Origin: Akkermansia muciniphila
Lineage (GTDB): Bacteria > Verrucomicrobiota > Verrucomicrobiia > Verrucomicrobiales > Akkermansiaceae
Length of the DNA stretch: 64,000 nucleotides
Direction: 5' to 3'
NCBI GenBank assembly: GCA_945883695.1
Contig: CAMCYK010000003.1
Span: 1 to 64,000, forward strand
This document shows positions 6,214 through 60,228 of the stretch, piece after piece (the stretch's first letter is position 1; each line of letters starts with the position of its first letter). The translations under genes were made by a program, and so were the position numbers. The notes below the pieces were generated by a model. The model was not told where the DNA came from. It saw only the letters and a list, made by a program, of their open reading frames with translations, and did not search any database.

Positions 6214-6896
6214 TGAAGCTGGACTACCGCATCGTCCGATCCGACCGGCGCAAAAAGCTGACGATCACCGTGGAGCGGGATCGGTCGGTCGTGGTGCATG
6301 CGCCCACGGCGGCGACGGACGAAGCAATCCAACGGGTGCTGGACTCCAAGCGGCAGTGGCTTTTCGACAAGGTCAATCATGCCCAGAAGTACCAGGACCG
6401 TCCGCATCCCCCGGGCAAGGAGTTGGTGAACGGCGAGTCCGCTCCCTACCTCGGGCGAGACTACCGGATCGAGATCGCGGACACCCCGAGTGGCGGGGTG
6501 GAGTTTTCGCGGCGCTTCCTGATTCCGGCCGCGTTGAAGACCGCTGGTCGTGAGGTCCTGAAGCAGTGGTATCTCGAACGGGCTCGGCAAACGATCCTGC
6601 CCCGGGTGCAACGCCACGCCGTCGAACTCGGCGTTGTGGTCGCCAAGGCGTCCATCGTGGACAACCGTTACCGATGGGGTTCCTGCACCGTGAAAGACCA
6701 CGTGAATTTCAACTGGCGGCTGATCAAGGCCCCGATGTTCGTGATCGATTATGTGATCGTCCATGAGCTGGCGCACCTGTTGGAGACCAACCACACGGCC
6801 CGCTTCTGGAATATCGTCCGGGCGAAAGCACCGACCTCGGAAAAGGCCAAGGCGTGGTTGAAGGAGCACGGGCAGTTGCTGGAGGAGGAGGTGTGA
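6213..6896 (+). CDS. YgjP-like / SprT-like M48-type metallopeptidase
   Basis: RYRWGSCT ... VIDYVIVHELAHLLETNHTARFW (HExxH). TGATG overlap with hsdR. Confidence 0.9.
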   Translation: MKLDYRIVRSDRRKKLTITVERDRSVVVHAPTAATDEAIQRVLDSKRQWLFDKVNHAQKYQDRPHPPGKELVNGESAPYLGRDYRIEIADTPSGGVEFSRRFLIPAALKTAGREVLKQWYLERARQTILPRVQRHAVELGVVVAKASIVDNRYRWGSCTVKDHVNFNWRLIKAPMFVIDYVIVHELAHLLETNHTARFWNIVRAKAPTSEKAKAWLKEHGQLLEEEV

Positions 6897-7185: not shown

Positions 7186-8163
7186 TTACCGGACTCCGGC
7201 ATTGCGGACAAAATCCACGAACCTCGCGCGGTGGGCCGCGACCATTTCGGCTTCGCCGGCGATCTTGAAGAACCAGGTGACTTCGCCGGTGCGGAGGATG
7301 GCGGCGGTGATCGCGCCATGGCGCTTGCCGCTGAAGAGGGGCTCGGCACTGACCATGTGCGTGAGCGTGATGGAGCCGGCCGGGCTCTGCAGGGTTTCGC
7401 CGACGGCGGGGTCGTCTTCCTTTTCCAAAGGGGAAAGGCGGAGCTGGGCGCGCCAGAGGTTGACGTTCTCCAGGTTGCTGCCGCCCTCGCCGGGGAGTGA
7501 GACGACGGAGACGTCGCCAGCGATGCCATCGGGTCCGGGGGCGGGGATGCGGTAGCTGGCGAAGCGCATCGCGTTGCCTTCCTGTTTTTCCCATCCGGCG
7601 GGCGGGTGGAGGTCGATCGCAGGCGTCTCCACTCCGGCGGCTGATCCGATTTCCACGCTTTTGAGGAGTTCCATGAAGCCGGGCCGGGCGGTCTCGAGGG
7701 CGGGGCTGGAGGAGTCGAGCTTGAAGAACCAGGTCTCGCCATCCACGGGGATGATGGCGGCGAGAATGCCGCGCTCGGCGCCTTTCAGCTCGAACCAACG
7801 CGCCTGCGCGTCGCCTTCCGCCAGCGCGATGGCCGTGCCGCCGGTCTCCAGGGATGGCTCGAGGCCGACCTGTTCCCGCCAACGGTTCACGTTGGCGCCG
7901 ATGCCTCCGGCGTCGCCGGGGAACTTCGAAACGGCGGCGGTGATGCCGGGGGCGATGCGGTAACGGGCGATCTGGAATTGGCCGGGCGTCTCCTCTTCCC
8001 ATGTCTCCGGCGGGATCCAGCGGAGGGGGCGCGGCGGCCTGTTTTCGGACGCGGCTTCGCTTGTTCCCGGATCGGGGGTGGCGATGCGGAAGCTGGGGAT
8101 TTCCTTTTCCTTGGAGCAGCAAAGCAGCGCCAGGGAAAGGATGGCGACGAGGACGGGCTTCAT
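7186..8163 (-). CDS. Putative lipoprotein with tandemly duplicated domain, paralog of 24718..25764
   Basis: Lipobox-like MKPVLVAILSLALLCCSKEK; two repeats of [PG]GDxGG..xxNVNRWRxQ(V/L)xL...ETWFFK. ATG at 8163; ORF extends to 8181. Confidence 0.7.
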   Translation of the reverse strand: MKPVLVAILSLALLCCSKEKEIPSFRIATPDPGTSEAASENRPPRPLRWIPPETWEEETPGQFQIARYRIAPGITAAVSKFPGDAGGIGANVNRWREQVGLEPSLETGGTAIALAEGDAQARWFELKGAERGILAAIIPVDGETWFFKLDSSSPALETARPGFMELLKSVEIGSAAGVETPAIDLHPPAGWEKQEGNAMRFASYRIPAPGPDGIAGDVSVVSLPGEGGSNLENVNLWRAQLRLSPLEKEDDPAVGETLQSPAGSITLTHMVSAEPLFSGKRHGAITAAILRTGEVTWFFKIAGEAEMVAAHRARFVDFVRNAGVR

Positions 8164-8173
8164 GGGAGGCGGC

Positions 8174-9883
8174 TCACTCACCGGCCTTGGCCGGCTCCGC
8201 GGGCGTCCCGCCGAGCGGCGCGAACGGGCTGCTGTTGTGGTAGGTATGGCAGCTCGTGCAGCGCTGGTCGATGCCGCCCTGCGGGCTGTGGCAATCGACG
8301 CAGGACTTGATGGAGGGGAGGTTGAGGTCGCTGGTGAGCCCGCTCTTCATCACGTCGTGGCAATCGAGGCAGGTGAGGCCTTTCTCGTGGAGGGAATGGT
8401 CGAATTTCCCGAGGGTCATCCAGCGGACAGGGACGCCGACCTTCTCGATCTTCGGCGTGGCGTTGTCGCCCTCGGCCTCCTTCACGTCATGACAGACGGC
8501 GCAGCCGGTGAAGGCGGCGCGCTGGCCATCGGCGAACTTGGTGCCCTTGTCGGAGAAGAAGACCATGTGCTCGAGATCCTCGCCGGTCTTGTATTGTTCT
8601 TCGATGCCGTCGCGTTTTTCCCTGATGTATCGGGCGAGCGTCTCGCGGCTGGTGATGCCCTCGACATCGCGGCCGAACTCCTCGTACTGGATATTGAGGC
8701 TGCGGAGAAAGGCGCGGACGTGGTAGGGGTCGCCGTGAGGCAGGGTGAGGCCGGGGGTTTCCTCGTCGAACTGGAGGGTGTGGCATTCGATGCAGTGCTT
8801 CCCGTAGGTGATCGGAAGCTGGTATTCGCCGCGGCCATCCTTTTCGTGGCAATCGGCGCAGTTGAGCTCGCGCGGAATGTTGCCCTGGCCCATGTGGACG
8901 GCGTGGTTGAACTTGAGGGTGTTGGTGTCCTGCACCTTGCCTGCAAGGCTGTCCTTGATCTGGCGGAACTCGGGATGGTCGGTGTGGAAAGCGGTGATGA
9001 CACCGGTATAGCCGCCTGGCGGTCGCTCGCGGGGCGGGACCCTCCCCTCGCCGCCCGACGCGGGTTTCGGGAACGCATGGGGGTTGATCCCCGCGCCGAG
9101 TTCCATCGACTTCGCCATGAGATCGGCGGAGCCGTGGCAGGCGGTGCAGTAGGCGTTGTCGACCGGGGGCATGAAGCCGCTGGTGCCGTGCTCCTTGTGG
9201 CATTCGTGGCAGGCGAAATCGGCCGGCATGTTCGGCTGGTGGAAATCCTTGCCCTGGTGGCAGGCGAGGCAACTCTTGTCCATCGCGGAGGATTCGATCG
9301 GGCCGCGCTTGATCAGGTCGGCGGGGGCAAGGCCATCCTTGAAGGCTCCGAGGGCTTTCGTGTGCCAGGAGTGGGCTCCGTCCTTCGCCCCATCGTGGCA
9401 GGCGGCGCAATTGCTGGAGTCGCCGGACATTTCCCGGTGGACCTTCCCGAAATGCTCGCTGGCGTGGACGCTGGAGATGGGGCCGGGATTGATGAAACCG
9501 TCGCGGATGTGGCGGCTGGTGCCGATGAGAAGCAGCAGGACGGTGGCGATGCAGGTGAAGACGATGGCGCGCTTCCGCACCGCACGGAGTGTCCGGCGCG
9601 GCTGGCACTTCGGGATCGCGTTGCAGCAGGTGCCGTCGGGAAGCGGACCTTTTTCGCACTTGCCTCCGCCGGACTTCGGGCGGGTGCAGGTCCAGTGGCC
9701 TTTCGACTCGCCCGCTTTGACGACCAGCTTCGGCGAGCACTCGCAGGTGGCGCGGCACCTGCCCTTCGGCGAGGGGCCGATCCTGCAGGGACAGCCCTCG
9801 CAGGCATGGCCGCATTCCCAATCCATGTTGGGGCGGACATACTCGTTGGAGGCGAACTCCGGGGATTTCGAGTCGTTTTTCAT
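8174..9883 (-). CDS. Membrane-anchored decaheme cytochrome c with N-terminal Cys-rich domain
   Basis: Ten CXXCH motifs (CAACH, CLACH, CHECH, CTACH, CADCH, CIECH, CAVCH, CLDCH, CVDCH, CTSCH) after a single TM helix (AIVFTCIATVLLLLIG); about 12 Cys precede the TM. Confidence 0.9.
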   Translation of the reverse strand: MKNDSKSPEFASNEYVRPNMDWECGHACEGCPCRIGPSPKGRCRATCECSPKLVVKAGESKGHWTCTRPKSGGGKCEKGPLPDGTCCNAIPKCQPRRTLRAVRKRAIVFTCIATVLLLLIGTSRHIRDGFINPGPISSVHASEHFGKVHREMSGDSSNCAACHDGAKDGAHSWHTKALGAFKDGLAPADLIKRGPIESSAMDKSCLACHQGKDFHQPNMPADFACHECHKEHGTSGFMPPVDNAYCTACHGSADLMAKSMELGAGINPHAFPKPASGGEGRVPPRERPPGGYTGVITAFHTDHPEFRQIKDSLAGKVQDTNTLKFNHAVHMGQGNIPRELNCADCHEKDGRGEYQLPITYGKHCIECHTLQFDEETPGLTLPHGDPYHVRAFLRSLNIQYEEFGRDVEGITSRETLARYIREKRDGIEEQYKTGEDLEHMVFFSDKGTKFADGQRAAFTGCAVCHDVKEAEGDNATPKIEKVGVPVRWMTLGKFDHSLHEKGLTCLDCHDVMKSGLTSDLNLPSIKSCVDCHSPQGGIDQRCTSCHTYHNSSPFAPLGGTPAEPAKAGE

Positions 9884-10716
9884 GGCGCGGATCCCGAGAA
9901 CGAATAGACGACGATCACGTGCGCCACACTGAGGATGAGCAGCGAGTAGCTCAGCGGGATGTGGGTGAAAAGCCAGACGCGCAGCGTGAACTGGAGCGAA
10001 TACTGGTAATCGAGCAGATGCTTCCGTTCGGCGAGATCCCTCAGCTTGTCCAGCAACTCGCCTTCGGCCTTCTTGGCGTAGCGCCCGATCTCATCGAACT
10101 GGGAGCGGTGCGCCGCCTGGGGAGCCCGGGAACTCCGCAGGTGCGCTCCGAAGTTGGCGGGCCTCGTGAAAAACAGCCCGAGTTTCCCGGTGTAGAAGTC
10201 CGCGATCACCGGCGATGTCTGACCGTCCACACCCGCCAGCACCAGCGCCTCCGCCTCCTCGCGGAGCCTGTTGCGGGCATGGGGGATCCGCTCGAACGGC
10301 GTCTCGAAACCCGCGTCGGTGAGGCGTTTCGGGAACGCGCGGCTGATCCAAAGCCCGATCACGCCGGTGACGAAGACGATGGCGAAGCACCCCGCGATGA
10401 TCTGGTTGAGCAGGCCGTGCGGCCATGAGAATCCGATGTGGATGAGAAAGAGGAATCCGGAGAGGATGCCGGCATACACGTGGAGTTGAAGCCAGGTGCT
10501 GACGCCGCCCATGCGGAGAAAGGGGACCTTTTTACGGAGGTTGAAGAAGGTGAGGAAAAGCATCACCCCGAACAGAATCCAGCCGCTGAGGAAGGGGTGG
10601 CGCGGATAGAGCGGCGCGAATTTCACGTAAGCCACGACCAGCCCGGCCACCGCCAAGGTGGTAAGCAAGGTGCCTGCGAGACGACGGCGGACCAGTTCTA
10701 TTTCCTTTTTAGCCAA
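9880..10716 (-). CDS. Integral membrane protein, cytochrome-b / ferric-reductase-like
   Basis: Several TM segments with conserved-looking His (LQLHVYAGILSGFLFLIHIGF; FTHIPLSYSLLILSVAHVIVV). A TTG start at 10716 fits operon overlap better than the track start 10821. Confidence 0.65.
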   Translation of the reverse strand: MAKKEIELVRRRLAGTLLTTLAVAGLVVAYVKFAPLYPRHPFLSGWILFGVMLFLTFFNLRKKVPFLRMGGVSTWLQLHVYAGILSGFLFLIHIGFSWPHGLLNQIIAGCFAIVFVTGVIGLWISRAFPKRLTDAGFETPFERIPHARNRLREEAEALVLAGVDGQTSPVIADFYTGKLGLFFTRPANFGAHLRSSRAPQAAHRSQFDEIGRYAKKAEGELLDKLRDLAERKHLLDYQYSLQFTLRVWLFTHIPLSYSLLILSVAHVIVVYSFSGSAP

Positions 10717-12455
10717 TGGGCGAGCGGGGTGATTCGGGTAAGGTCGGTGCGGCTGAGCGCGTCGTGCGGGCAGGCGTTCACGCAGGCGGGGCCGCTTTTC
10801 TGCTCCACGCAGAAGTCGCACTTGGTGGCCGCGAGAATGGGTTGGAACTCCTCGTCCACCAGGAACTCGCCCTTTTGCGAGCGTATCTCGACCATCCGGA
10901 TCGAGTCATAGGGGCAGTTGTTCGCACATGCGGTGCAGCCGATGCAGGTGGCGGGGTTGATGACCACCTCGCCGCCGAAGCTGGTGCGGTGGATCGCGCC
11001 GGTGGGGCAGCCGATCATGCAGACCGGATCGACGCAATGCATGCACGCGTTGGCGATCATCAGGTTGCCGATCATCGGCCCGTGGCGGAGGAAGCGGGGG
11101 TTGCCGTCGTGGGTGGCGGCGCAGGCCCGGACGCAGTCGTCGCAGCGGGTGCAGCGATCCATGTCGATCACCATGGCCTTGGTGCCGTTGAGGAAACGGT
11201 TCTCCGCCATGAATTCCATGAGGCGGGCCGGGGGCGCTTCACCATCCTCGCTGATCCCCGGGTCGCCAACCTTCGGCAAACGGGCCGGACCGAACACATT
11301 TTCAACCCACCCGAGGTTCGCGAATTTCTCCAGCGCGGCGGTGGGTATGAAAATGAGGTGGGCGTAGCCAAGCGAGCGGAGGGTGTGGACGGATTGCAGG
11401 CCCTCGTCGGAGTTCTTCCAATGGTTGGCGATTTCCCCGAAGCCGAACATGCTGCCCGGGCCGATGTAGTTGAGCGTCCGCTCCCCGCTGCCGAACTTCT
11501 GGCTGACGCGGCAGAAGCCGGCGCGGATCATGTGGATGCCATTCAGGTATTCGCCTTCCCTGACGATGAGCGGCTCGTTGTCGGACGTGGATGAACCGCC
11601 GTCCTTGGCCAACCGCTTGTAGATGCCGGACCAGTTGTAATCGCCGTGGGTTTCCAACTGGGCCTCGGTGCAAAGCTCCCCGTAACTCGCCTCGTCGAGG
11701 TGGCTGAAAAGCGGGTGGTGGCTGAGAAAAGACTTCAGCGAGTTCTCCCGGTAGATCTCGTCGATCCTCGCCTTCAGCGCGGGATCGTATTTCATGATGT
11801 CGCGCAGACCTTCCCAACTGAACTCGAGCAGGCGGGTGTCCGGCAAGGCCGCGACGATTGTCCTGGTGCGCGGCATGCGGCTCAGCGCGGAGATTTCCCC
11901 GAACATGCTGCCCGCGCCCATCTTTTCGGTGTGTGAGCCGGAAACAATGCGCGGGTAATCATAAAGGTAAACGGACCTGCGGCCGTTGCCGGAGAAATCC
12001 TTGCCATCATCACCTGCGAAGGGCGAGCGCCCCCGCCGGCCTTCCGGCTCCGGGTTGTTGGTCCAAAGCTGCGCGAAGCGGGAGACGAAACTTCTCTTGA
12101 CGCTCGGCGCACGGCCGAGGAGGCGGGGATCAATCTCAGGCCGGATGACGACCTCCACCTCGCCGGCAAGCACGAGGTAAGCGGAGGTTCCGTAGTCACC
12201 CTTCCTGATGACGATCTCGCCCGGTGAGAAATCGCGCACGGCGGAGTCGTATCTCAGGATTTCGCGGAGCGGGGTTCCGGAGGGAAACCGGGAGGCATCC
12301 ATGCTGGCGAACGGCTCCGATGCGAGAAGCATGTCCAGCGTGGCCTCGTCCATTTCGGGATCGAGCGGGTCGCCCCAGCGCTGGGGCCGGGCCGCCAGGC
12401 TGACGAGGTTCGCGAGGTTGGTTTCGGATTGCACCATGGCTGGGGTTTCAGGCAT
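10698..12455 (-). CDS. Two cyclic-nucleotide-binding-like domains fused to a four-[4Fe-4S] ferredoxin domain (HybA/DmsB-like)
   Basis: SMFGEISALSRMPRTRTIVA phosphate-binding-cassette motif plus a second cNBD-like region (GSMFGFGEIANHW). C-term CTRCDDCVRAC, CMHCVDPVCMIGC, CIGCTACANNC, CDFCVEQKSGPACVNAC. Confidence 0.85.
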   Translation of the reverse strand: MPETPAMVQSETNLANLVSLAARPQRWGDPLDPEMDEATLDMLLASEPFASMDASRFPSGTPLREILRYDSAVRDFSPGEIVIRKGDYGTSAYLVLAGEVEVVIRPEIDPRLLGRAPSVKRSFVSRFAQLWTNNPEPEGRRGRSPFAGDDGKDFSGNGRRSVYLYDYPRIVSGSHTEKMGAGSMFGEISALSRMPRTRTIVAALPDTRLLEFSWEGLRDIMKYDPALKARIDEIYRENSLKSFLSHHPLFSHLDEASYGELCTEAQLETHGDYNWSGIYKRLAKDGGSSTSDNEPLIVREGEYLNGIHMIRAGFCRVSQKFGSGERTLNYIGPGSMFGFGEIANHWKNSDEGLQSVHTLRSLGYAHLIFIPTAALEKFANLGWVENVFGPARLPKVGDPGISEDGEAPPARLMEFMAENRFLNGTKAMVIDMDRCTRCDDCVRACAATHDGNPRFLRHGPMIGNLMIANACMHCVDPVCMIGCPTGAIHRTSFGGEVVINPATCIGCTACANNCPYDSIRMVEIRSQKGEFLVDEEFQPILAATKCDFCVEQKSGPACVNACPHDALSRTDLTRITPLAHWLKRK

Positions 12456-13797
12456 CAAGCACCATTCTCCCATTGGGTCGGCAGATACAGGCAAGGCAGC
12501 TGCCTTCCTCCGGCTCATCGCCGGGTTCGCCGATGTATTCGACATGGCCATCCTTGATCGCCACCTTGCAGCTCCCGCAGCCCCCCGAACGGCAACCCGC
12601 GTCGATGGTGGTGATCCCGTTGGCTTCGGCGAAATCCAGCAGATTCGCCACGGTGGGATCCCACATGAGTTTTTTGCCGGTGCGGGCGAACTCGATCTCC
12701 ACCAGCGACTGGCTTTCCTTGTCCGGTTTGCCCGCGGGCTCTTTCGGTTTGGTGCTCACGGTCGCGGGGCCGAACGCCTCGAACTTCACGTCCTTCTTCG
12801 GAACTCCCCATTCGTAAAGCCCGCTCACGAGGCTGTCCATGAACGGGCCGGGGCCGCACAGGTAGTATTCGTAATTGCTGGACGGCAGGACCTGCTTCAG
12901 CAGATCCACCGTGACCCGGCTCTGGTGGTTGAAATTCGTTCCCGCCGCATCTCCCTCGAAAGGACGGCTGTAGCAGATATGGAGCCGCATGTTCGGGTTC
13001 TTCTTCTGCAACTCGATCACCTCGTCCCGGAACATGTGGTCCGCGCTGTTGCGGCAGCCGAAAAAGAAATAGATCTCCCGCGGATCCCTGGTGTGGGCGA
13101 GCACCCGCGCCATGGCCAGCATGGGGGTGATGCCGATGCCGCCCGAGATCAGGACGACCGGTCGATCCATCTCCACATCGAGGTAGAATTTCCCGGAGGG
13201 CGCCTTCACGTCCACGATGTCGCCTTCCTTCACCTGGTCCGCGAAATGGTTGGAAACCGCACCCGGCGATCCGTCGGCGCGGACGTAGCGTTTGATGGTC
13301 ACCCGGTAATGGGTGTCGCTGATCGAACCGTCCGAAAGCGAGTAGCACCGCACCAGGGGCTTCGGCTCATTCGGGAATTTGAACTCGAAGGTGAGATATT
13401 GACCGGGCTTGAACGGCGGCAACCGCCTGCCGTTGTGGGGCGTGAGGTAGAAGGAATAGGTGTCCTCGCATTCCTCCACTTTCCGGGCGACGGTGAACTT
13501 CCGGTAGCCGTTCCACGCCACCTCGGGCGCGGCCTGGGCCTTCAGGTTCAGCAGTTCGATTTTCTTCCCCAGCGCGGCGAGTTCCAGGCGGCTTCGTTGG
13601 GACTCGAACGCGTGGCGACGGGCGGCCGCCCACCATTGTGTGGCGATGTAGCCGAACATGAGCGCCACCCCGCCCGCACCGACGATGAGGGCGGGATCCG
13701 AGAAGACGGGGGACGGGAGCAGGGTCTCGGGGTTCACATTCTTGGAGGTGCGGATGACTGGCGTCCGAGCCGGATTTCGCAATTGCTTCGAGGGCAC
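12448..13797 (-). CDS. FAD/NAD(P)-binding oxidoreductase with C-terminal 2Fe-2S ferredoxin domain
   Basis: Ferredoxin-NAD(P) reductase motifs RCYSLSDGS, VVLISGGIGITPMLAMA; 2Fe-2S motif CRSGGCGSCKVAIKDG...GSCLACIC; N-terminal hydrophobic segment. Confidence 0.85.
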   Translation of the reverse strand: MPSKQLRNPARTPVIRTSKNVNPETLLPSPVFSDPALIVGAGGVALMFGYIATQWWAAARRHAFESQRSRLELAALGKKIELLNLKAQAAPEVAWNGYRKFTVARKVEECEDTYSFYLTPHNGRRLPPFKPGQYLTFEFKFPNEPKPLVRCYSLSDGSISDTHYRVTIKRYVRADGSPGAVSNHFADQVKEGDIVDVKAPSGKFYLDVEMDRPVVLISGGIGITPMLAMARVLAHTRDPREIYFFFGCRNSADHMFRDEVIELQKKNPNMRLHICYSRPFEGDAAGTNFNHQSRVTVDLLKQVLPSSNYEYYLCGPGPFMDSLVSGLYEWGVPKKDVKFEAFGPATVSTKPKEPAGKPDKESQSLVEIEFARTGKKLMWDPTVANLLDFAEANGITTIDAGCRSGGCGSCKVAIKDGHVEYIGEPGDEPEEGSCLACICRPNGRMVLDA

Positions 13798-14005
13798 CGC
13801 CCTCCCTTGAGGGTAGAAATATTAACTTCTTTTTCCTTATGAGAAAGATCAAATCGGGGGAGCCCCGTCAACCCCCACTTCGGCAAGGCGGCGGCACCCC
13901 CTGTCTGTCAGGAGGTCCGGAGGCCCTGCCCGCCCCGCTTCGCGGCCCGCGGTTCAGGTGAATCGACTTGCCAGAATGAGGCCTGAAACGTTAGGAAGTC
14001 CTCAA

Positions 14006-15139
14006 ATGCGGGGAGGCTTTCAATTTATTGCGGCTGTGGTCTCGCTCTGTTTTCCGCAGGCCGCCCCGGCCGAACCGGCCGGCGCGTCGAGGGTGCTGGG
14101 TTCCGGATCCTGCGCCACGAGCGGTTGCCACGGCGGCGCGGGGCCGAACCGCGGGGCTTATCATATCTGGAAACGCGCCGATCCGCACTTCAAGGCTTCC
14201 GCGACTTTGACGAACGGGCAATCCAAGGCGATGGCGCGAAAGCTGGGGATTGCGAGTGCCGCGGAATCGGCAAGTTGCACCGTTTGCCACGCGCCGATGC
14301 GGAATGTGGAGCCTGCGCTGTTTGCGCCCTCCGGGAAGGACCAGGCCCAGGAGGATTTCTCCTGCGCGAACTGCCATGGCGGCGCCGAGGACTGGATCCT
14401 CTCGCACACCCGCCCCGAATATCCGAGGGCGGCTCTGGTAAAGCTGGGGATGCGGCCGTTGGAAAGCGCCTACCAGCGGGCGAACAGCTGCGTCGCCTGC
14501 CACCAGAACCTGAGCGACGATCTCGTGAAAGCGAACCATCCGCCGCTGATCTTCGAACTCGACGGTCTGCTGGTCGAGCAACCCAAGCATTGGCGCGAGG
14601 ACAAGGAGTTCTCCCACGCGAAGACCTGGCTCGTCGGCCAGGCGGTGGCGTTGCGCGAGACCGCGGCGCAGGCGGCCCGCGAGCCCGGCGATCGGAGAAA
14701 CGCGGAGATCGAGGCGATCAAGGAGCTGCTGTCTGCGAGCGCCACCGGCTGGGACGGCGGCGCGGGAGCGGATCTCGTCCGTGCGGCGGATGACTTCGCG
14801 AGACGGATTTCCGACGCGCCGATGACTTCCGCGCAAGCACGCTCGGCGCTCGACCGGCTCATGGGAAACCGGAAACCCTTCGAGATCGGCGCCTTCGGAA
14901 CGGTTGCGGATGAATACCGCATGTGGGCGGTCGGCTACTACGCGGAGCGCGTGGCGCTGGCGATCGACCGGCTGAACCAATCCCTCGTCTTGTCCGGCCA
15001 GAAAGCCGTGGTCGCCGAGGAAGCGCTCGACGGGCTGTTCAAGGCCGCGAAGCCGCCGAAGTGCTTTGACGCGGATGTGGCTGAACACTTTGTCAGGAAG
15101 CTCGATGGCCTGGCAAAATCCAACCCGGGTGCCGAATAA
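14006..15139 (+). CDS. Secreted c554-like multiheme cytochrome c
   Basis: Signal peptide MRGGFQFIAAVVSLCFPQAAPAEPA; CATSGCH (CX4CH), CTVCH, CANCH, CVACH. Confidence 0.8.
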   Translation: MRGGFQFIAAVVSLCFPQAAPAEPAGASRVLGSGSCATSGCHGGAGPNRGAYHIWKRADPHFKASATLTNGQSKAMARKLGIASAAESASCTVCHAPMRNVEPALFAPSGKDQAQEDFSCANCHGGAEDWILSHTRPEYPRAALVKLGMRPLESAYQRANSCVACHQNLSDDLVKANHPPLIFELDGLLVEQPKHWREDKEFSHAKTWLVGQAVALRETAAQAAREPGDRRNAEIEAIKELLSASATGWDGGAGADLVRAADDFARRISDAPMTSAQARSALDRLMGNRKPFEIGAFGTVADEYRMWAVGYYAERVALAIDRLNQSLVLSGQKAVVAEEALDGLFKAAKPPKCFDADVAEHFVRKLDGLAKSNPGAE

Positions 15140-15175
15140 TCACCAGGTTCCTCAATCCATGGAAGTTCCGAGGAA

Positions 15176-17650: not shown

Positions 17651-17652
17651 CG

Positions 17653-20600: not shown

Positions 20601-21537
20601 GAACAATTTCATCCGCAAGGCCGCGTCCTTCAATCCGGACGGCGCGCTGGACGGCGCTCGGCACTCCTGGATGGCGGGGCAATGGCTCTACATCACCACC
20701 GCGCGGGGGCTGGCGGTCGTCGATGTGAAGGATCCCGAGAAGCCGGTGATGGCCGGCGGTTACTCCGGCTCCTTCCTCCGCGATGCCCGCCAGTCCACGC
20801 TGCAATGGCACTATTGCTTTGTGACCGATGCGGACGGCGTGAAGGTCTTCGACGTTTCCAACCCCGCCAAACCGCAGCCGATCGACGGGGCGTCGGTGCC
20901 TTTGGGCCAAGCCAACGGGCTCTACGCCGCGCGGACCTATCTCTACGTCGCCAACGGCGCGCAGGGGCTCGCGATCATCGACATCAAGAATCCCGCCAAG
21001 CCGCGCAAGCTCTCCGACTTCACCGCTGGAGGACGCATCAACGACGCCCGCGACGTCCAGATCGGCTCGGTCAGCGCCTCGATGTATGCCCACGTCGCGG
21101 ACGGCCGCAACGGCCTGCGCGTCGTGCAGCTCATCTCGCCGGAAAACGTTCCCGGCCACATGGGCTTCTCGCCCAAACCGGAGCCGAAGCTGATCGCGAC
21201 CTACCCGACCAAGGGGCCGGCGGTCACCGTCTCGCGCGGGCTCGACCGCGACCGTGTGGTCGACGAAAGCGGCAACCAGACGGTGGTCTTCGGACGGCGT
21301 GGATCGCGCCCGTTCAACCTCGGGGAAATGGCGGCCTTTTTCCGCAAACCGGGCGGCGGGGAATACCGGGTCCACGACGTCAAGCATGGTGAAAACGGTT
21401 CGTTGACCGACGTGCACAACCGCGTTCTCGCGCCCGGCGAGGAGTTCGCGATCCCCGCCTCGGCGCGGGACGGCGAGCCCGCTCCAAGCACCGGCCGACT
21501 GAGGAAAAGAAGGGCCCCCACGGAAACCGGACCATGA
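17653..21537 (+). CDS. Large decaheme cytochrome c with C-terminal LVIVD-type beta-propeller
   Basis: Ten CXXCH (CIECH, CTDCH, CGGCH, CTACH, CMNCH, CVDCH, CVDCH, CQTCH, CFGCH, CTDCH); C-term repeats such as YLYVANGAQGLAIIDIKNPAKP. Confidence 0.85.
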   Translation: MTSSRNHSWICCALVAACAGVIPARSQDQPAPSVVRGGLFGPPIAARETPRPDVAIPKPNKIDQSVAAMLAKSKGCIECHENTHDPHGSEFVRLGCTDCHGGDPTSGLTMKQAHPMPLNPVFFESAANPSDSTVLLNHESPGFIKFVNPGDLRVAKETCGGCHAESVDHVNHSMMRHGAMLWGAAAYNNGAYPAKDSIFGQAYGANGVALALQSPVKVTPEMQRTMGIVDAIFPLPRFNISQPGNIFRIFEKGGSRLAELGNPDPFDPPGRPFRRLGERGLGTSSRVDPVIIGAHKTRLHDPLLDFFGSNDRPGDYRSSGCTACHVVYANDRSPSNSGWYSAYGNQGLSFNPDPMISKKEKGHPIEHKFTRSIPSSQCMNCHMHQGNLFVNPYLGYTWWDQESDAEFMYPKKQKNPTDEEMAESLRRNPEAAAARGLWGNVNFLEKSAELNPKLKDTQFADYHGHGWMFRAVFKKDREGNLLTLEGDKIDHADKDKFKKAVHLKDIHLALGMQCVDCHFLNDAHGNGLLYVEPRAATAIMCVDCHGTVSARASLVTSGKGGTLSKDGKVEPVDLRESNTPFGPRFTWSADGKSLIQQSSMDRNLKWEVPQTLDTVDPDSRDYNIMSAYAKTLKRDGKTWGAVPADKAGCAKQLAHSNENMDCQTCHSSWATSCFGCHIPMEANYKMAANKFEGTTSRNFSSYNPQVVRDDVFMLGIDSTAKDHRLAVLRSSSAVVVGSQGPNREWFYTQQQTVSSEGYSGQAFNPHFAHTTSGVGTTKNCTDCHLSQDNDNNAIMTQLLGFGTGTVNFFGRFAYVGTDDHGLSAVAWTERTEPQAAIGSHLHKYAYPDFYEQHLANQSILKTSHHHHAKGGAADLQLRGEYLYAALGKSGFGVFDVANVDNKNFSERIVTTPVSALGQKTFLKSPHATSITLPSTLINDPKRKRLPANEEQPIADYHGYAFVTDLEEGLIVADVATLLDGNPANNFIRKAASFNPDGALDGARHSWMAGQWLYITTARGLAVVDVKDPEKPVMAGGYSGSFLRDARQSTLQWHYCFVTDADGVKVFDVSNPAKPQPIDGASVPLGQANGLYAARTYLYVANGAQGLAIIDIKNPAKPRKLSDFTAGGRINDARDVQIGSVSASMYAHVADGRNGLRVVQLISPENVPGHMGFSPKPEPKLIATYPTKGPAVTVSRGLDRDRVVDESGNQTVVFGRRGSRPFNLGEMAAFFRKPGGGEYRVHDVKHGENGSLTDVHNRVLAPGEEFAIPASARDGEPAPSTGRLRKRRAPTETGP

Positions 21538-22829
21538 AAGCCTATCCCGCATTTGGTGCCTTGCTGCTCTCCGCTACCGCGATCTTCGCAGCGGAGAGCA
21601 TCGCCCCCGTCTCGGGCGCAAGCGGCGAGGCCGGTCACCAGGACGGCACCGGTGGCGCGGCGCGCTTCAACGATCCGATGGGGCTGGCTCGCGACGCGCA
21701 GGGCAACCTTTACATCTGCGACGCCCGCAACCACGCGATCCGGAAGGTCGCCCCGGGCGGTGTCGTCACCACGGTGGCCGGCCGGCCCGGCGAGCCGGGC
21801 GCGGTGGACGGCGCGGGCTCCGCGGCGCGTTTCAATTTCCCGGCGGATATCGCCGTCGCCCCGAACGGCACGCTCTACGTCGCGGACCGCGGAAACCATT
21901 GCATCCGGGTCATCACCGCGAACGGTGCGGTCACCACCCTCGCCGGTGATCCCGGCAGCGCGGATGATATCAACAAGGATTACGGCGAAACCTACAAATC
22001 GGTTCCCGCCCGGCTCGATGGCAAGGGCGCGGCCGCCCGCTTCAACGGCCCCAGCGGGATCGCCTACGCCCCCGCCGGATTTCTCTACGTGAGCGATACC
22101 GGCAACCAGATCATCCGCAAGGTCACGCTCAAAGGCGCCGTCTCCACCGTGGCCGGCAAGGCGGGCGAGTGGGGAAGCGCCGACGGCTCCGCCAGGAAAG
22201 CGCGCTTCTCCTCGCCGACGGGGCTTTGCATCGGCGCGGACGGCGACCTCTACATCGCCGATTCCATGAACCACGCGATCCGCCGCATGACCCCGAAGGC
22301 GGTCGTCACCACCTTCGCGGGAAATCCGCTCGAAGCCGGCTGCACGCCGGGGCCGCGCCTTCAAGCGCGCTTCTGTGAACCCACCGACATCGCCCCTCAT
22401 CCCGGCGGTGGCTTCATCATCTGCGAATCCTTCGGGAACGCCCTTTTCCGGCTCGCCGCCGACGGCCACGTCTCCCTTTTCGCCGGCCAGACCGATTCCG
22501 GCCCCGCGCCAAACTCGCTGTCCCATCCGAACTCCGCCGTCTGCGACGACACCGGCAATGTCTTCGTGTCGGACACCTTCAACCAGGAGGTGCGCCTGAT
22601 CATCGAGAAATTCCGCGCCTCCATCGAACGCGTCGGCGGCGCGGACCAGTTCAGGCTCACCTGGGACAGCATCCCCGGCCGCACTTACCAGCTCCAGATC
22701 CTCGGGAACCAAGGTTGGGAAAACGCGGCGCCGCCCCCCGTCCTGGCCACCGCCGGGGAAAGCTCCGTCAGCTTCCCCATGCCGCAGGAAAAGACCGGCA
22801 TCTACCGCGTCCTGATGTTGGGGTTTTGA
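21534..22829 (+). CDS. NHL-repeat secreted protein
   Basis: Repeats of DAQGNLYICDARNHAIRKV / PNGTLYVADRGNHCIRVI / ADGDLYIADSMNHAIRRM; ATGA overlap with 17653..21537. Confidence 0.85.
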   Translation: MKAYPAFGALLLSATAIFAAESIAPVSGASGEAGHQDGTGGAARFNDPMGLARDAQGNLYICDARNHAIRKVAPGGVVTTVAGRPGEPGAVDGAGSAARFNFPADIAVAPNGTLYVADRGNHCIRVITANGAVTTLAGDPGSADDINKDYGETYKSVPARLDGKGAAARFNGPSGIAYAPAGFLYVSDTGNQIIRKVTLKGAVSTVAGKAGEWGSADGSARKARFSSPTGLCIGADGDLYIADSMNHAIRRMTPKAVVTTFAGNPLEAGCTPGPRLQARFCEPTDIAPHPGGGFIICESFGNALFRLAADGHVSLFAGQTDSGPAPNSLSHPNSAVCDDTGNVFVSDTFNQEVRLIIEKFRASIERVGGADQFRLTWDSIPGRTYQLQILGNQGWENAAPPPVLATAGESSVSFPMPQEKTGIYRVLMLGF

Positions 22830-22928
22830 GGTGGGACCACGGAGCGCGGGCTTCGACGGTTCCGCCGCACGCGTCACCGTCGGAAGCTGCCGACGCTCGC
22901 AACGCGGTGAATGCCGGGTTTCCGAAAC

Positions 22929-24587
22929 TCAGAAACTCGAAGAGGCGCGGGGGAACCTGGCGTAGGGGAGGCGGGCGCGCTCATAGACGAAGTTGTCCGC
23001 GCGGCTTGCCGGAGGTGGCAGGAAGTTCTTCGCGCCGCTCGCGCCGACGATGTCGTCCTGCTCGATGCCGTCGCCGGACACGCCGATGGCGCCGACGAGG
23101 ACTCCGTTGCGGTAGAGCGGAAAGCCGCCCGGGAAAATCGTGATGCCGTTGGGCACGTTCAGGTTGATCGGGGCGGAGGGAATGTTGCCGCCCTGGAGGG
23201 AGAAGAGCACTTGAAGCTCGGCCAAGGGTCCGCGCGGAGTGCTGTTGATGCCCGGCGGATAAAATGCCTGGGCAAGGAAACCGACCGAACGGGAGGAAAA
23301 CGCCCGTGGACTTCCGCGTTCCAACCCGCGCGAGAAGAACAGGGCGGTCCGCGCCTTCTGAACCGCCACGTCCCAACTGAAAATCGTCGCATCCGGCGTG
23401 CGGTAGGTGCCCAGCACGACCGGCTCCACACCGTTGGCGTTGGGATTGTTCACCACGGAAATCCAGACCTGGGTGATCTGCCCGCGCGGCAGGCGGATCC
23501 CGGCGCGGGTGATCTGCGAACGCTCCGCCGCCAACCTCAGGATGCCTTCCACCTCGGCGGCGCTGAGCCGCGCGGCTCCGGCGATCGTTCCGGGCCCGGG
23601 ATCGGCGCGGATCGCGGAGCGGAGTTCTCCCGGGACGCCGCCCGGGCCGGTGAGGCCGAAGGGGTTCGGATACACGACGGACGGCGGCGAGGCCTTGGGC
23701 GCGTAATCGACCGAATCATCGTCGGCGGAGGGGGCGATACCGTCGATGTCGGCGAAACCCACCGCCTGACCGTTCGCGGCGAGGAAGGTCGCGGGATCGG
23801 CCACGGTGGCGTTCGAACCCGCGCCGGCCACGTAGGCCAGCCGCACGCCGTCGATGGCGACGTTGTTGCCGCCGAAAACCGGACCCGGCCGGAAGCCCGC
23901 CTGGCCGCCCAACGCGATGCGCTCGTTGATGTTCGGTCCGAAGAAGATCTCGAAATCCTCGACAGGAGTGTCCGCGAAGCCCACCACGCCGATGCCGCCG
24001 ACCAGCACGCCGTCTTTGAAGAGCGGCACTCCGCCGGGACTGGAACCGGCGGCGGGAAGGGTGAGCAGCGAAGTGAAGGGCACGCTGCGGAATTGGTCGG
24101 CGGGCGTCGCGCTCTCGAGGTCGTCCACACCGGGCACGGGTGGCAAGGGGAAGGTGCCGTCGGGGCGGGGCGCCTTGTATTTGTTCGTGTCCGAGAACGC
24201 CATGCTTGAAAAATTCACGCCGACCAGCGGGCCGTTCGGTCGGTTTGCCACGGCGGGCGGGAAATGCCTTTGCACGATGAATGCCGCGGTGCGTGAGGTG
24301 AAGGCGTGCTGGTTGCTGCTGAGGAAAGCCGCCGCGCCCGCTTTCGATACCACATCCGCGACCACGGACGGTGTCGGGTTGGGTGCCGCCGCACCATTCA
24401 CATCCCAGACCGCCAGCACATGCCCCTCGCGGTCGGTGATCGCGATCACCCGGTTCTCTTCCGGTGAGATGGCCTTGGCCTCCTGGACCGCCTGCGCCAG
24501 GACCTGCCGCACCTCCCCGATCTCCATTCGCTGCGCGAAAAGCGGCGAAACCGGAGCGAGGAGGAACAAGGGGATCCGCCAATCCAT
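22929..24587 (-). CDS. Secreted GlcG/HbpS-like heme-binding family protein, two domains
   Basis: Signal peptide MDWRIPLFLLAPVSPLFAQ; VRQVLAQAVQEAKA...RVIAITDREGHVLAVWDV; second copy EGILRLAAERSQI...TIFSWDVAVQKARTALFF. ATG at 24587 preferred over track start 24791. Confidence 0.7.
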   Translation of the reverse strand: MDWRIPLFLLAPVSPLFAQRMEIGEVRQVLAQAVQEAKAISPEENRVIAITDREGHVLAVWDVNGAAAPNPTPSVVADVVSKAGAAAFLSSNQHAFTSRTAAFIVQRHFPPAVANRPNGPLVGVNFSSMAFSDTNKYKAPRPDGTFPLPPVPGVDDLESATPADQFRSVPFTSLLTLPAAGSSPGGVPLFKDGVLVGGIGVVGFADTPVEDFEIFFGPNINERIALGGQAGFRPGPVFGGNNVAIDGVRLAYVAGAGSNATVADPATFLAANGQAVGFADIDGIAPSADDDSVDYAPKASPPSVVYPNPFGLTGPGGVPGELRSAIRADPGPGTIAGAARLSAAEVEGILRLAAERSQITRAGIRLPRGQITQVWISVVNNPNANGVEPVVLGTYRTPDATIFSWDVAVQKARTALFFSRGLERGSPRAFSSRSVGFLAQAFYPPGINSTPRGPLAELQVLFSLQGGNIPSAPINLNVPNGITIFPGGFPLYRNGVLVGAIGVSGDGIEQDDIVGASGAKNFLPPPASRADNFVYERARLPYARFPRASSSF

Positions 24588-24717
24588 GACTGGGTCCCTT
24601 ATCCCCGAGCCGGGTCGGGATGACAAGGGAATAGCAGGCGTTGGACAAGGCCAGTCCGCACATCTTGTTCTCGACGCGTGCCCCGTTTGCGGGCGAGGTT
24701 TTGCCTGACCTCCCACC

Positions 24718-25764
24718 ATGCCAAACCACGCCCTACCCGCCCTTGTACTCTGCCTCGCCATCTGTTCCTGCAAGGATGATGAGGTCCGCACCTACCGGGT
24801 GGCCGCGGAGCCGGAGGCCGCAACGAAGCCGCCTCGGAGCGTGGGAGTGAATGACCACGCGGTGCCTTCCGAGTCCGTGACGTGGCGCGCCTTGCCGGGT
24901 TGGCAAGAGGAGGAGGCGGGCAAATTCCTCACCGCGGCCTACACCGTGCCGGGTCTCGGGCGCTTGACGGTTTCCAAACTCGGCGGCGACGGCGGCGGAC
25001 TCGCGGCGAACGTGAACCGCTGGCGCGGGCAGGTGGGCATGCAGCCGCTGCCGGACGGCGAGGTGCGCGGCCAGCCGATGCCGGTGACGGGAAGCGACCG
25101 CGAGATGCTGCTTTTCAACCTCAACCCGGACGACGCGGCAACCGACGCGGAGGGCGTCTTCGCCGCCGTGCTGCCGCTCGGCCCGGAGACATGGTATTTC
25201 AAACTCCCCGGCCCGTCCGCGAAGCTGCGCGAAAGCGGCGGCGAGGTGTTGCTGGCTTTCCTCGCCGAAGTCCGCATCGCCGGCGAGGAACAAGCCGCGC
25301 CGCCAACGCCTTCCGCCCCCGCCGCGCCGGAAATACCGAAAATCCAAGTCACCGCGCCGGAGGGCTGGGAACCGAGCGCAGGCAGCTCGATGCGCGTCGC
25401 GAGTTTCGCGATCAAGGGCGCGGACGGCACCACGGCGGATGTCTCCGTGATCCCCCTGCCCGGCGATTCCGGGAGCGTGCTCGAGAACGTGAACCGCTGG
25501 CGCGGCCAGGTGCAGCTCCCCCCCCTCCCGTCCGCCGATGAGCCCGCGCTCGGCGCGGAAATGGACGGCGTGGCGGGCACATTTTTCGTGACCCACATGG
25601 TCAGCGGGGAGGCGGTGCTCGACGGGAAGAAAGCGGCGATTTCCACCGCGATCCTGAAGACGGAAGGGATCACATGGTTTTTCAAGATGACCGGAGAGGC
25701 CACCCTGGTGGAGGCCAACCGGGAGAAATTCGAAGCCTTCGCACGCGCCGCGACCTTCCCATGA
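24718..25764 (+). CDS. Putative lipoprotein with tandem duplicated domain, paralog of 7186..8163
   Basis: Lipobox-like LVLCLAICSCKDD; LAANVNRWRGQVGMQPL and LENVNRWRGQVQLPPL; C-term TWFFKMTGEATLVEANREKF matches TWFFKIAGEAEMVAAHRARF of the paralog. Confidence 0.75.
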   Translation: MPNHALPALVLCLAICSCKDDEVRTYRVAAEPEAATKPPRSVGVNDHAVPSESVTWRALPGWQEEEAGKFLTAAYTVPGLGRLTVSKLGGDGGGLAANVNRWRGQVGMQPLPDGEVRGQPMPVTGSDREMLLFNLNPDDAATDAEGVFAAVLPLGPETWYFKLPGPSAKLRESGGEVLLAFLAEVRIAGEEQAAPPTPSAPAAPEIPKIQVTAPEGWEPSAGSSMRVASFAIKGADGTTADVSVIPLPGDSGSVLENVNRWRGQVQLPPLPSADEPALGAEMDGVAGTFFVTHMVSGEAVLDGKKAAISTAILKTEGITWFFKMTGEATLVEANREKFEAFARAATFP

Positions 25765-26924
25765 TGCTGCGGTCCGCCGGAAGATTCCTGAGTTCCCTGC
25801 GCCTTACGGTAACGCTGCTGGGCTTATCGATGGTGCTGATTTTCGTCGGCACGGTCTCACAGGTCTCTCTCGGCATCCACGAGGTCGTGGAGCTTTATTT
25901 CCGCTCGTGGATCGCGTGGTGGGATGTGATGCCGGGGGAAAAGGTATTCAAGATCCCGCTCCCCGGCGGCGGGCTGATCGGCTGCCTGCTCATCGTGAAC
26001 CTCCTCGCCGCGCACGGCACGCGCTTCAAGCTCCGATGGAGCAAGGCGGGCATCATGCTCATCCACGCCGGCATTTTGCTGATGCTCATCGGCGAGCTGG
26101 GCACCGGATTCCTCGGAAAGGAGGCGCAGATGACCGTCAACGAAGGCCAGTCGATGAACTACTCCACCTTCCCCCGCGAGGTGGAGCTGGCCGTGATCGA
26201 GGTTTCCGGGGACGGCATGGAAACGGTGCACGCCATCCCGCAGAGCCGCCTCAAAGACGGCGCGGCGTTTCCTTTCCCCGGCTTCACCTTGCGGATCGAC
26301 CGCCATTTCGAGAACAGCGAGATCCTCGAGGAAAAGGTGGCGGGCGAAGGTTTCGATCCGGTCCGCGCGACGACCGGCGCGGGGATCGGCTACGCGGTGC
26401 GGACGAAGCCGCGCGAGACGGCGATGGATCGGCGCGACCTCGCGACCTCGTTCGTCAGCGTCCTGCCGGACGGTGGCGCGCCGCCGGGCCGCTGGCTGCT
26501 TTCCAATGCTCTCGCCGGCGCGCAGTCCTTCGAGGCGGGCGGGAAAAGCTGGAAGATGGCGATCCGCCCGGCCCGCCTTTACCATCCGTTCACCATCAAG
26601 CTGCTCGACTTCAGCCACGACCGTTACCTCGGCACGAACGTCCCGAAGAATTTCTCCAGCAAGATCCGCCTGCTCAACCCGACGACCGGCGAGGACCGGG
26701 AGGATCTGATCTACATGAACCATCCCCTGCGCTACCAGGGACTCACCTTTTACCAATCCGGCTTCGCGAACGACGACACCACCACCATTTTTCAGGTCGT
26801 GAAAAACCCGGTCTGGACGCTCCCCTACATCTCCTGCGCGATGGTCTCCGCCGGCCTGCTCTGGGTGTTCTCCGCGCACCTGCTGAAAGCCGTCGCCCGC
26901 CGCAAAACCGTCACCGCGTCATGA
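25761..26924 (+). CDS. resB: ResB-like cytochrome c biogenesis protein (System II)
   Basis: FLSSLRLTVTLLGLSMVLIFVGTVSQ...; MNHPLRYQGLTFYQSGF; ATGA overlap with upstream lipoprotein gene. Confidence 0.85.
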   Translation: MMLRSAGRFLSSLRLTVTLLGLSMVLIFVGTVSQVSLGIHEVVELYFRSWIAWWDVMPGEKVFKIPLPGGGLIGCLLIVNLLAAHGTRFKLRWSKAGIMLIHAGILLMLIGELGTGFLGKEAQMTVNEGQSMNYSTFPREVELAVIEVSGDGMETVHAIPQSRLKDGAAFPFPGFTLRIDRHFENSEILEEKVAGEGFDPVRATTGAGIGYAVRTKPRETAMDRRDLATSFVSVLPDGGAPPGRWLLSNALAGAQSFEAGGKSWKMAIRPARLYHPFTIKLLDFSHDRYLGTNVPKNFSSKIRLLNPTTGEDREDLIYMNHPLRYQGLTFYQSGFANDDTTTIFQVVKNPVWTLPYISCAMVSAGLLWVFSAHLLKAVARRKTVTAS

Positions 26925-28747
26925 CCGATTTTTCACGGAACCATCTCGCGTGGCTCCTCCCCGCGCTCTGCCTCGTTTTCCTCGCGGCGAACGCGTTCCG
27001 GGCGACGCGTCCGTCCGAGGGTTTCGATTTCCCGAACTTCGGCACCCTGCCTGTCGTTTCGAACGGGCGGGTGCAACCGCTCGATTCGCTTGCGCGCAAC
27101 ACCCTGCTCGCGATCCACGCGAAGCAACGCGTGCCGGGCGAAGGCACTCCCTCCGCTCCCTCCGCATGGCTCGCGGAACTCGCCTTCAAACCCGCGCTCG
27201 CCGACACGCGGAAAATTTTCCTGATCCACCACGATGACCTTCTCGGCCTCACCGGCCTCACTCGCGGCGAGGAGAAAAGCTTTTCCTTCGACCAGCTCCA
27301 GCCCTCTTTCCCCACCCTGCAAAAGGAAGCCGGCCGGATCGAGAAAATCGATGCGCAGGCGCGCAGCGCTTACGAAAAAGCCCTGATGCGGCTCACGCGG
27401 AACCTCTTCGCCTACAACCAGCTCAAGCACGCCCTCGCGCTGCCGCGGAAGGAGAACATCGAGACGGAATTCGGGCTCTTCCTGGAGAAGGTCACCGCCG
27501 CACTGTCCGCCGCCGACAACAAGGACGCGCCGAAGGACCAGCCGCTCATCGACGACGCCTCCGCGCGGATGCGCGAGATGCTCGCGTGGGCGCCCTTCAG
27601 CGAGGTCTTCACCACGCCCTCCGGCACCGGCGACGCGGGCTGGCGGAAACTCCCGGATTCCGTGATCGACTCCGCCGACACCGGCAAACTCCACCCCGCG
27701 GCGCTCGCCTACGCCCGCCTCGGCGATTCCTACCGCACGGGGAATACCGCCGCCTTCAACTCCGCCGTCGCGGATTACCGCAAATGGCTTTCCGAAAACC
27801 GTTCCGAAGCCCTCGCCAAAAGCTCGGCGGAAACGCTCTTCAACCGCATCGCGCCGTTTTACCAAAGCATGGCGCTCTACGTTGCGGCCTTCCTTTGCGC
27901 CGCGTTCTCATGGCTGCGGGCCGGTTCCGCCCTGCGCGTCGCCGCGTTCCGCATCCTGCTGATCGGCTTCGTGGTGCACACCGCAGGGCTCATCACCCGC
28001 ATGACACTCGAAGGCCGGCCGCCGGTCACGAACCTCTATTCCTCCGCCATTTTCATCGGCTGGGGCGTCATTGTCCTCAGTGCCGTGCTTGAGATATTTC
28101 ACCGCAACGCGATCGGCACGGCGGTCGCCGCCGCGGTCGGCTTCGCCACGCTTCTCGTCGCGCACCACCTTTCCCTTTCCGGAGACACCCTGGAAATGAT
28201 GCGCGCCGTGCTCGACACGAATTTCTGGCTCGCCACCCACGTCGTCGTCATCACCCTCGGTTACTCGGCTTGCTTCCTGGCCGGCGGCATCGCCATCGCC
28301 TGGATCCTTCGCCGCGCTTTCGGCGGCATTCCGCCCGCGACCAGCGCCTCGATGCGCGGCATGGTCTATGGAGTCATCTGTTTCGCCACGCTCGCCAGCT
28401 TCGTCGGCACGGTGCTCGGCGGCATCTGGGCGGACCAGTCGTGGGGCAGGTTCTGGGGCTGGGATCCCAAGGAAAACGGCGCCCTGCTGATCGTGATCTG
28501 GAACGCGATCATCCTCCACGCCCGCTGGGGGGGCATGGTGAAGGAGCGCGGCATGATGGTCATGGCGGTCTTCGGAAACGTGATCACCTCGTGGTCATGG
28601 TTCGGCACGAACATGCTCGGCATCGGCCTGCATTCCTACGGCTTCACCGACGCCGCCTTCTTCTGGCTGTCCGCCTTCATCGTTTCCCAACTCGTCATCA
28701 TGGCGCTGGCCTATCTGCCGCAGCGGAAAAGGCTGGAAACCACCTGA
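26921..28747 (+). CDS. ccsA: CcsA-like cytochrome c assembly protein (System II)
   Basis: Tryptophan-rich WGRFWGWDPKENGALLIVIWNAIILHARW motif in a multi-TM C-terminus; ATG at 26921 overlaps resB stop. Track start 25907 lies inside resB and is rejected. Confidence 0.9.
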   Translation: MTDFSRNHLAWLLPALCLVFLAANAFRATRPSEGFDFPNFGTLPVVSNGRVQPLDSLARNTLLAIHAKQRVPGEGTPSAPSAWLAELAFKPALADTRKIFLIHHDDLLGLTGLTRGEEKSFSFDQLQPSFPTLQKEAGRIEKIDAQARSAYEKALMRLTRNLFAYNQLKHALALPRKENIETEFGLFLEKVTAALSAADNKDAPKDQPLIDDASARMREMLAWAPFSEVFTTPSGTGDAGWRKLPDSVIDSADTGKLHPAALAYARLGDSYRTGNTAAFNSAVADYRKWLSENRSEALAKSSAETLFNRIAPFYQSMALYVAAFLCAAFSWLRAGSALRVAAFRILLIGFVVHTAGLITRMTLEGRPPVTNLYSSAIFIGWGVIVLSAVLEIFHRNAIGTAVAAAVGFATLLVAHHLSLSGDTLEMMRAVLDTNFWLATHVVVITLGYSACFLAGGIAIAWILRRAFGGIPPATSASMRGMVYGVICFATLASFVGTVLGGIWADQSWGRFWGWDPKENGALLIVIWNAIILHARWGGMVKERGMMVMAVFGNVITSWSWFGTNMLGIGLHSYGFTDAAFFWLSAFIVSQLVIMALAYLPQRKRLETT

Positions 28748-45977: not shown

Positions 45978-46021
45978 GATGGTGACGTGGGACGGGTGCT
46001 GAGGTTTGAATCGGGCAAGGA

Positions 46022-57360: not shown

Positions 57361-57517
57361 TGACACTTGGATCGATTGTCGCACGACGACGCTGCCGCTT
57401 CCCGCTTTGCCTACGGCCATGCCAGTCAGTGGCTAACGCCAGTTCCGGCACGTCGCGACCGCTCCTTCCTGCGTTCCGCTAGCGGGCGCCGAAGCGCCCC
57501 GGCGCAAGCCCCGCCCC

Positions 57518-60223: not shown

Positions 60224-60228
60224 GGAGC

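Follow-up and report, generated by a model that had tools for sequence, protein, structure and literature searches.

A gene cluster for a putative trans-envelope electron pathway with an NAD(P)H-type inner module in Verrucomicrobiota and on Sphingobium plasmids

What delivers electrons to the outer-membrane cytochromes of Verrucomicrobiota, and can two divergent sets of redox genes make up one route out of the cell? These questions are raised by positions 7186-28747 of a stretch of Akkermansia muciniphila DNA (GCA_945883695.1, contig CAMCYK010000003.1, positions 1 to 64,000), referred to here, at its full length of 64,000 nucleotides, as the window. Read outward from the divergent middle, the minus arm of this cluster runs m5, m4, m3, m2, m1, and the plus arm (genes p1 to p8) runs p1, p2, p3, p4, p6, ResB, CcsA. 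The central products are a flavoprotein (m5), a ferredoxin with cyclic nucleoside monophosphate (cNMP)-binding domains (m4), a membrane protein (m3), multiheme cytochromes (m2, p1, and p3), and an outer-membrane protein (p2). The two arms are one co-inherited electron-transfer set, and the locus would, with a probability that we put at about 0.6, encode a single trans-envelope pathway from reduced nicotinamide adenine dinucleotide (phosphate) [NAD(P)H] to an acceptor located at the outer membrane or farther out.

Results

Two sets of genomes were searched, one of 337 genomes at the level of the order, with alignments of m4 (A4) and p2 (A2), and one of 388 genomes at the level of the phylum. 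The m4 alignment matched 20 of the 337 genomes and the p2 alignment matched 10. p2 was present in exactly the 10 genomes (10/10) whose m4 is of the window type (type A) and in none of the other 327 (Fisher 2e-19, over related genomes that are not independent). Across the phylum, p3 occurred in 11 genomes and m4 in 14; both occurred in 8, and they were adjacent in all 8 (Fisher 4e-11).

Gene maps revealed the divergent arrangement of the window in seven other loci; one further genome had both arms on one contig, and three, with fragmented assemblies, had them on separate contigs. Of the congeners searched, G008 alone has the cluster, and it carries all of the genes on one strand, in the order FNR, cNMP protein, membrane protein, decaheme cytochrome, lipoprotein, ResB, CcsA, c554-like cytochrome, outer-membrane protein, decaheme-LVIVD protein, and NHL protein. 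Family f9, Opitutales-like by inference, has m5-m4-m3-m2-p2-p3 in one direction, with p1 and the HbpS-like gene divergent or flanking where the contig extends that far. Pairwise distances among the inner genes were correlated with those among the outer genes, with coefficients of 0.74-0.95. The arms are regarded as one system because of their 10/10 co-occurrence, the single-strand and merged layouts, the matching divergence, and the reappearance of the linkage in Sphingobium. The gene arrangement is far from chance, and many genomes have kept the two arms together as one unit; synteny, one of the checks that an earlier note on this DNA had named, found the arms together outside the window at both taxonomic levels. 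A variant of the cluster, variant B, comprises ten genomes of the order and the six phylum-level genomes that have the inner module without p3; a four-heme c554-like protein replaces the outer part, and at many of these loci a five-heme protein of ~900 residues also stands in its place.

Outside Verrucomicrobiota, the set was traced in plasmid records by tblastn. Relatives of m4 and m2 lay close together in 12 Sphingobium plasmid records, and identity to the Sphingobium proteins was ~45% over 92% for p3 and 28-30% for m2. One side of the locus on S. herbicidovorans plasmid pMSHV carries genes for a c554-like protein, an HbpS-like protein, an outer-membrane protein (E = 3e-105 against the p2 model), and a decaheme-LVIVD protein (E = 0). 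The opposite side carries a decaheme gene, in which an FHA-like domain replaces the Cys-rich domain of m2; a gene for a membrane protein in which the four histidines of m3 are kept; and a gene for an 825-residue fusion of a pyridine-nucleotide flavoprotein (Pyr_redox), two cNMP domains, and four 4Fe-4S sites. Its flavoprotein part is of a class unrelated to m5 and occupies the same position. This replacement of m5 by an unrelated NAD(P)-binding flavoprotein is the strongest indication that the pathway's partner in the cytoplasm is NAD(P)H. The earlier proposal of a cytoplasmic NAD(P)H flavoprotein linked to multiheme cytochromes and an outer-membrane protein in one set is supported by co-inheritance, synteny, and Pfam domains.

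All of the genes named in the earlier note are real open reading frames (ORFs) with coding-type GC content at third codon positions, and the two divergent arms with the listed domain content were borne out by translation of the window and by Pfam and NCBIfam scans. The gene order given for the minus arm stood, but the long overlaps of its raw ORFs did not: those of m4 and m3 are spurious, because in a congener a stop codon separates m5 from the start of m4. Corrected starts are 12437 for m4, a TTG at 10716 for m3, and 26921 for CcsA. The plus-arm genes that had been listed were likewise confirmed, but the listing was incomplete, omitting an HbpS-like gene (22929-24587) and a second lipoprotein gene (24718-25764).

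The inner module consists of four minus-strand genes. m5 (12448-13797) encodes a flavoprotein reductase with an N-terminal transmembrane helix, FAD_binding_6 and NAD_binding_1 domains, and a plant-type 2Fe-2S domain (PF00970, PF00175, and PF00111); the helix and the motifs RxYS, GGIGITP, and CX4CX2C were recognized by reading, and the protein is most likely the point of electron entry from NAD(P)H. m4 (10698-12437) has two cNMP-binding domains (Pfam cNMP_binding) and a ferredoxin module (Fer4 families) with 16 conserved cysteines, corresponding to four 4Fe-4S sites; all 16 cysteines are kept in 36 of 36 homologs. The phosphate-binding cassette residues Glu181 and Arg190, as expected of a cNMP-binding domain, are present in all 35 homologs that have the position. 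m3 (9880-10716) is a multispan membrane protein whose two conserved H-X13-H pairs suggest a diheme cytochrome b: H78, H92, H251, and H265 occur in 34 to 35 of 35 homologs at a spacing that fits axial ligands. An AlphaFold2 (AF2) model of m3 was mostly helical, with a predicted local distance difference test (pLDDT) score of 71; a fold search of the PDB with this model returned no match, and a profile search against the PDB gave nothing meaningful. Pfam and profile searches with the m3 of the window found no significant family match, and the Sphingobium homolog matched Ni_hydr_CYTB weakly (E = 1e-4), below the cut-off. Because the m4 cysteines, the cassette Glu and Arg, and the m3 histidines are conserved, nucleotide binding by m4 and heme binding by m3 are plausible. 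m2 (8174-9883) comprises a Cys-rich N-terminal domain of ~100 residues, one transmembrane helix, and ten CXXCH hemes (Cytochrome_C7 and Cytochrom_c3_2). The N-terminal domain is of a cytoplasmic type with nine invariant cysteines, and m2 has ten CXXCH motifs in the complete clusters.

A CpdA-like cyclic AMP (cAMP) phosphodiesterase gene adjoins the decaheme gene in both Sphingobium records examined (L078:11281-12129 and L079:14410-15258). This neighbor on two plasmids, together with the conserved cassette residues, raises the tentative idea that m4 is a cyclic-nucleotide-gated electron valve, in which cAMP or a relative might switch the flow of NAD(P)H electrons across both membranes; m4 would then be a redox carrier, not a transcription factor. 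Sensing of cyclic nucleotides and control of the pathway by them are, in this sense, predictions from sequence.

The outer module is encoded on the plus strand. p1 (13958-15139) is a c554-like tetraheme cytochrome with a signal peptide, three CXXCH motifs, and one CX4CH motif (Cytochrome_C554, PF13435, E = 9e-8); homologs also occur in the Sphingobium and variant-B clusters. p2 (15176-17650) is a putative outer-membrane protein with a Pro-rich N-terminal region extending to residue ~270 and a beta-barrel-like C-terminal part. All 22 complete homologs end in F or Y, in a pattern of alternating hydrophobic residues. A home-made strand counter, which tells LamB apart from most soluble proteins though not from MalE, counted 17 amphipathic strands between residues 271 and 824 (z = 3.2; LamB, 3.1; soluble MalE, 2.5; Sphingobium homolog, 0). 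Five of 14 p2 homologs gave a weak, partial porin match (DESULF_POR1), and p2 is likely a beta-barrel. It adjoins p3 in every locus long enough to show both. p3 (17653-21537) is a decaheme cytochrome with ten CXXCH motifs and a C-terminal LVIVD-repeat region (PF08309), and p4 (21534-22829), present in only part of the Verrucomicrobiota loci, is a secreted NHL-repeat beta-propeller protein (PF01436, E = 6e-36). Just upstream of the c554-like gene, six type-A loci carry the 10-bp palindrome TGGCTTGCCA or its complement (L013:2927, L014:8588, and L017:3813, and upstream of p1 in G313, G260, and G245), against an expectation of ~0.1 per locus; the window shows no more than a degenerate version of it, near 13958. 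The palindrome is a possible regulator site.

Between p4 and p6, on the minus strand, lies the gene for a secreted protein of the HbpS-like heme-binding/degrading family (22929-24587; PF03928, E = 2e-21). Homologs occur at most cluster loci, including both sphingomonad plasmids, and the gene is a member of the cluster. The minus arm ends in m1 (7186-8181, minus strand), a lipoprotein (lipobox by reading) with two repeats of ~150 residues and no Pfam family match; its paralog p6 (24718-25764, plus strand; 38% identity) is a lipoprotein encoded upstream of ResB-CcsA, and a p6 homolog precedes ResB-CcsA in several genomes. A distant relative of these lipoproteins (E = 5e-11) also stands beside the other ResB-CcsA pair of the genome (L127:5564-9562), and its position next to this housekeeping pair suggests that the lipoprotein is part of the maturation system. 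ResB (25761-26924; PF05140, E = 2e-20) and CcsA (p8, 26921-28747; PF01578), both on the plus strand, scored above the family cut-offs and are adjacent, as expected of System II cytochrome c maturation. A search for the CcsA family gave three matches in the genome. Each genome searched in the genus has one housekeeping-type CcsA, with roughly 30-42% identity to p8, and a second copy occurs only in G000 and G008, the two cluster carriers among the congeners searched. The claim that the cluster has its own maturation genes therefore holds in this lineage as a cluster-linked second copy; it does not extend to family f9 and Sphingobium, in which ResB-CcsA is not adjacent to the cluster, and ResB-CcsA is an add-on to the cluster.

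The cluster is flanked on one side by part of a restriction island (1130-6896), with a Schlafen/AlbA-type protein and an HsdR type I restriction subunit (Pfam scan) and a small YgjP-like metalloprotease (by reading). Beyond the other end, two large proteins end in an S74 endosialidase-chaperone-type region (43539-46478 by Pfam and 31844-34639 by reading), near a 2676-residue secreted protein (35229-43259). PEP-CTERM-like sorting ends were seen by reading at 29126-30874, which also has a PATR repeat, and at 52727-53587. Positions 53882-63989 hold, again by reading, an exopolysaccharide-type cluster with an O-antigen ligase-like protein, a response regulator, an undecaprenyl-phosphate transferase-like protein, a UDP-GlcNAc epimerase, and a glycosyltransferase.

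Discussion

In the proposed pathway, NAD(P)H would reduce the membrane-anchored m5, and electrons would pass from its flavin and 2Fe-2S center to the cNMP-domain ferredoxin m4 and on to the diheme-b protein m3. From m3 they would pass through the inner membrane and reach the ten-heme part of m2, proceed to the c554-like p1, and leave through p2 together with p3, the presumed partner at the surface. The final acceptor, at or beyond the outer membrane, could be humics, Fe(III), or something similar in oxygen-poor freshwater or soil. The HbpS-like protein, the NHL protein, and the lipoproteins might serve heme supply or assembly, and the second ResB-CcsA would attach the hemes. The order of these steps and their outward direction are deduced from domains and neighboring genes, and the complete conduit to the surface put forward as a candidate in the earlier note is likewise an inference.

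Several observations weigh against this pathway. The outer module occurs without m4 nearby in three genomes (G355, G494, and G567) and on a Sphingopyxis plasmid, and the inner module occurs without p3 in the six phylum-level genomes of variant B. The strand count of p2 is supportive only, since it yields a false positive for MalE; family searches placed p2 in no solid known family, profile searches of the PDB found no relative, and its AF2 model was uninformative (pLDDT 26), so that the barrel asserted in the earlier note is backed by the C-terminal F/Y and the strand pattern but not by the model. Three COX1 matches in the genome indicate that oxygen respiration is probably available, and anaerobic respiration need not therefore be the purpose; a non-pumping route from NAD(P)H would also conserve little energy. 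Candidate purposes are the respiration of humics or Fe(III), the balancing of redox state, and the supply of iron by reduction.

The last two of these uses make up a possible, if on balance doubtful, alternative to respiration, in which extracellular Fe(III), humics, or quinones would be reduced for iron supply or to dispose of excess NAD(P)H. It shares the conduit with the proposed pathway and differs in purpose only, and confidence in the one does not exclude the other. Sphingobium is generally aerobic, which, with the NAD(P)H-type rather than quinol-type entry, the COX1 matches, and the HbpS-like heme proteins, speaks for such a use; but no iron-uptake or siderophore gene was seen in the cluster, and ten-heme proteins would be costly as a ferric reductase. 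It is rather unlikely that a reductase in the periplasm or outer membrane terminates the pathway, with p3 or p1 reducing a soluble substrate, p2 acting as the channel for substrate or product, and no electrons leaving the cell. The far stronger conservation of p3 than of m2 between the phyla (~45% versus 28-30% identity) would be expected of an enzyme, and p3 has a large LVIVD region and local matches to ExtM, of a selenite/tellurite operon, and to octaheme nitrite reductase. These matches, however, span only ~50-70 residues around two heme motifs, no catalytic motif was identified in p3, and the inner module has a different outer set in variant B.

Electron uptake, with extracellular donors feeding inward to quinone or NAD(P)+, appears improbable. 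Redox chains are reversible in principle, and outer-membrane cytochrome systems also occur in iron oxidizers (PMC6344600), but two unrelated NAD(P)-binding flavoproteins stand at the cytoplasmic end, and NAD(P)+ reduction from Fe(II)-like donors needs energy, of which the locus has no visible supply. Least probable are two independent neighboring operons with no functional link: there are genomes with either module by itself, but the 10/10 co-occurrence at the order level, the single-strand and merged arrangements, the matching divergence of inner and outer genes, and the recurrence of the linkage in Sphingobium all argue otherwise, and two unrelated operons were rejected on synteny.

The proposed pathway can be compared with several known systems. 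Porin-multiheme cytochrome clusters of Verrucomicrobia, with homologs in Opitutus, were proposed to pass electrons to extracellular humics (He et al. 2017, PMC5615132). That system has a porin and a periplasmic cytochrome with eight heme sites, and its inner-membrane step is left open as “ET in IM” (PMC5615132). The window cluster is like it in phylum and in having a candidate porin adjoining multiheme cytochromes, and differs in its FNR, cNMP-ferredoxin, b-type protein, and LVIVD region, none of which is mentioned in the text examined (PMC5615132).

A putative outer-membrane protein beside multiheme cytochromes also recalls the architecture of MtrCAB, MtrB-PioB, and the Geobacter porin-cytochrome conduits. 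p2 had no MtrB_PioB or other porin-cytochrome Pfam match and no match to MtrB or another protein in the PDB, and the MtrC/MtrF domain PF22113 gave 27.8 bits for m2 and 26.8 bits for p1, below the cut-off of 30. Inner-membrane entry in known conduits is quinol-linked; the entry of the window cluster is of the NAD(P)H type, in contrast to MtrCAB-type conduits. All 11 p3 homologs matched NCBIfam ExtM, of the Geobacter Ext operon, locally (best E = 2e-20), but the p3 match covers ~50 of 1294 residues with 54.5 bits against a cut-off of 800 and thus falls short of full length. The combination of a ferredoxin with four 4Fe-4S sites, a b-type membrane protein, and a multiheme c-type cytochrome recalls DsrMKJOP, Tmc, and Hmc, and m4 has low-scoring matches to DsrO, HmcB, and DmsB, all far below the curated cut-offs. 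DsrMKJOP, Tmc, and Hmc are not known to have cNMP domains, flavoprotein input, or an outer-membrane arm. With its two H-X13-H pairs and its place beside an FAD/NAD reductase, the small helical membrane protein m3 resembles ferric reductase/NADPH oxidase and cytochrome b561; unlike in these, the components in the window are separate proteins, and their partners are a ferredoxin and decaheme proteins. Searches of the open-access literature found no description of the combined gene set.

The cluster appears to be a real variant of the porin-multiheme conduit, one whose inner module is linked to NAD(P)H, and the whole set is apparently undescribed. Known conduits have been described mainly as running from quinol to the outside; here, two phyla have kept a set in which the entry is of the NAD(P)H type, the ferredoxin has cNMP domains, and the outer modules can be exchanged. 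If the proposed pathway is correct, it would show that such a pathway can reside on large plasmids of soil Sphingobium, and it would allow a direct test of the gating of electron transfer by cyclic nucleotides. It would also give a testable answer to the question of what feeds the porin-cytochrome clusters of Verrucomicrobiota, which an earlier report on them left open (PMC5615132).

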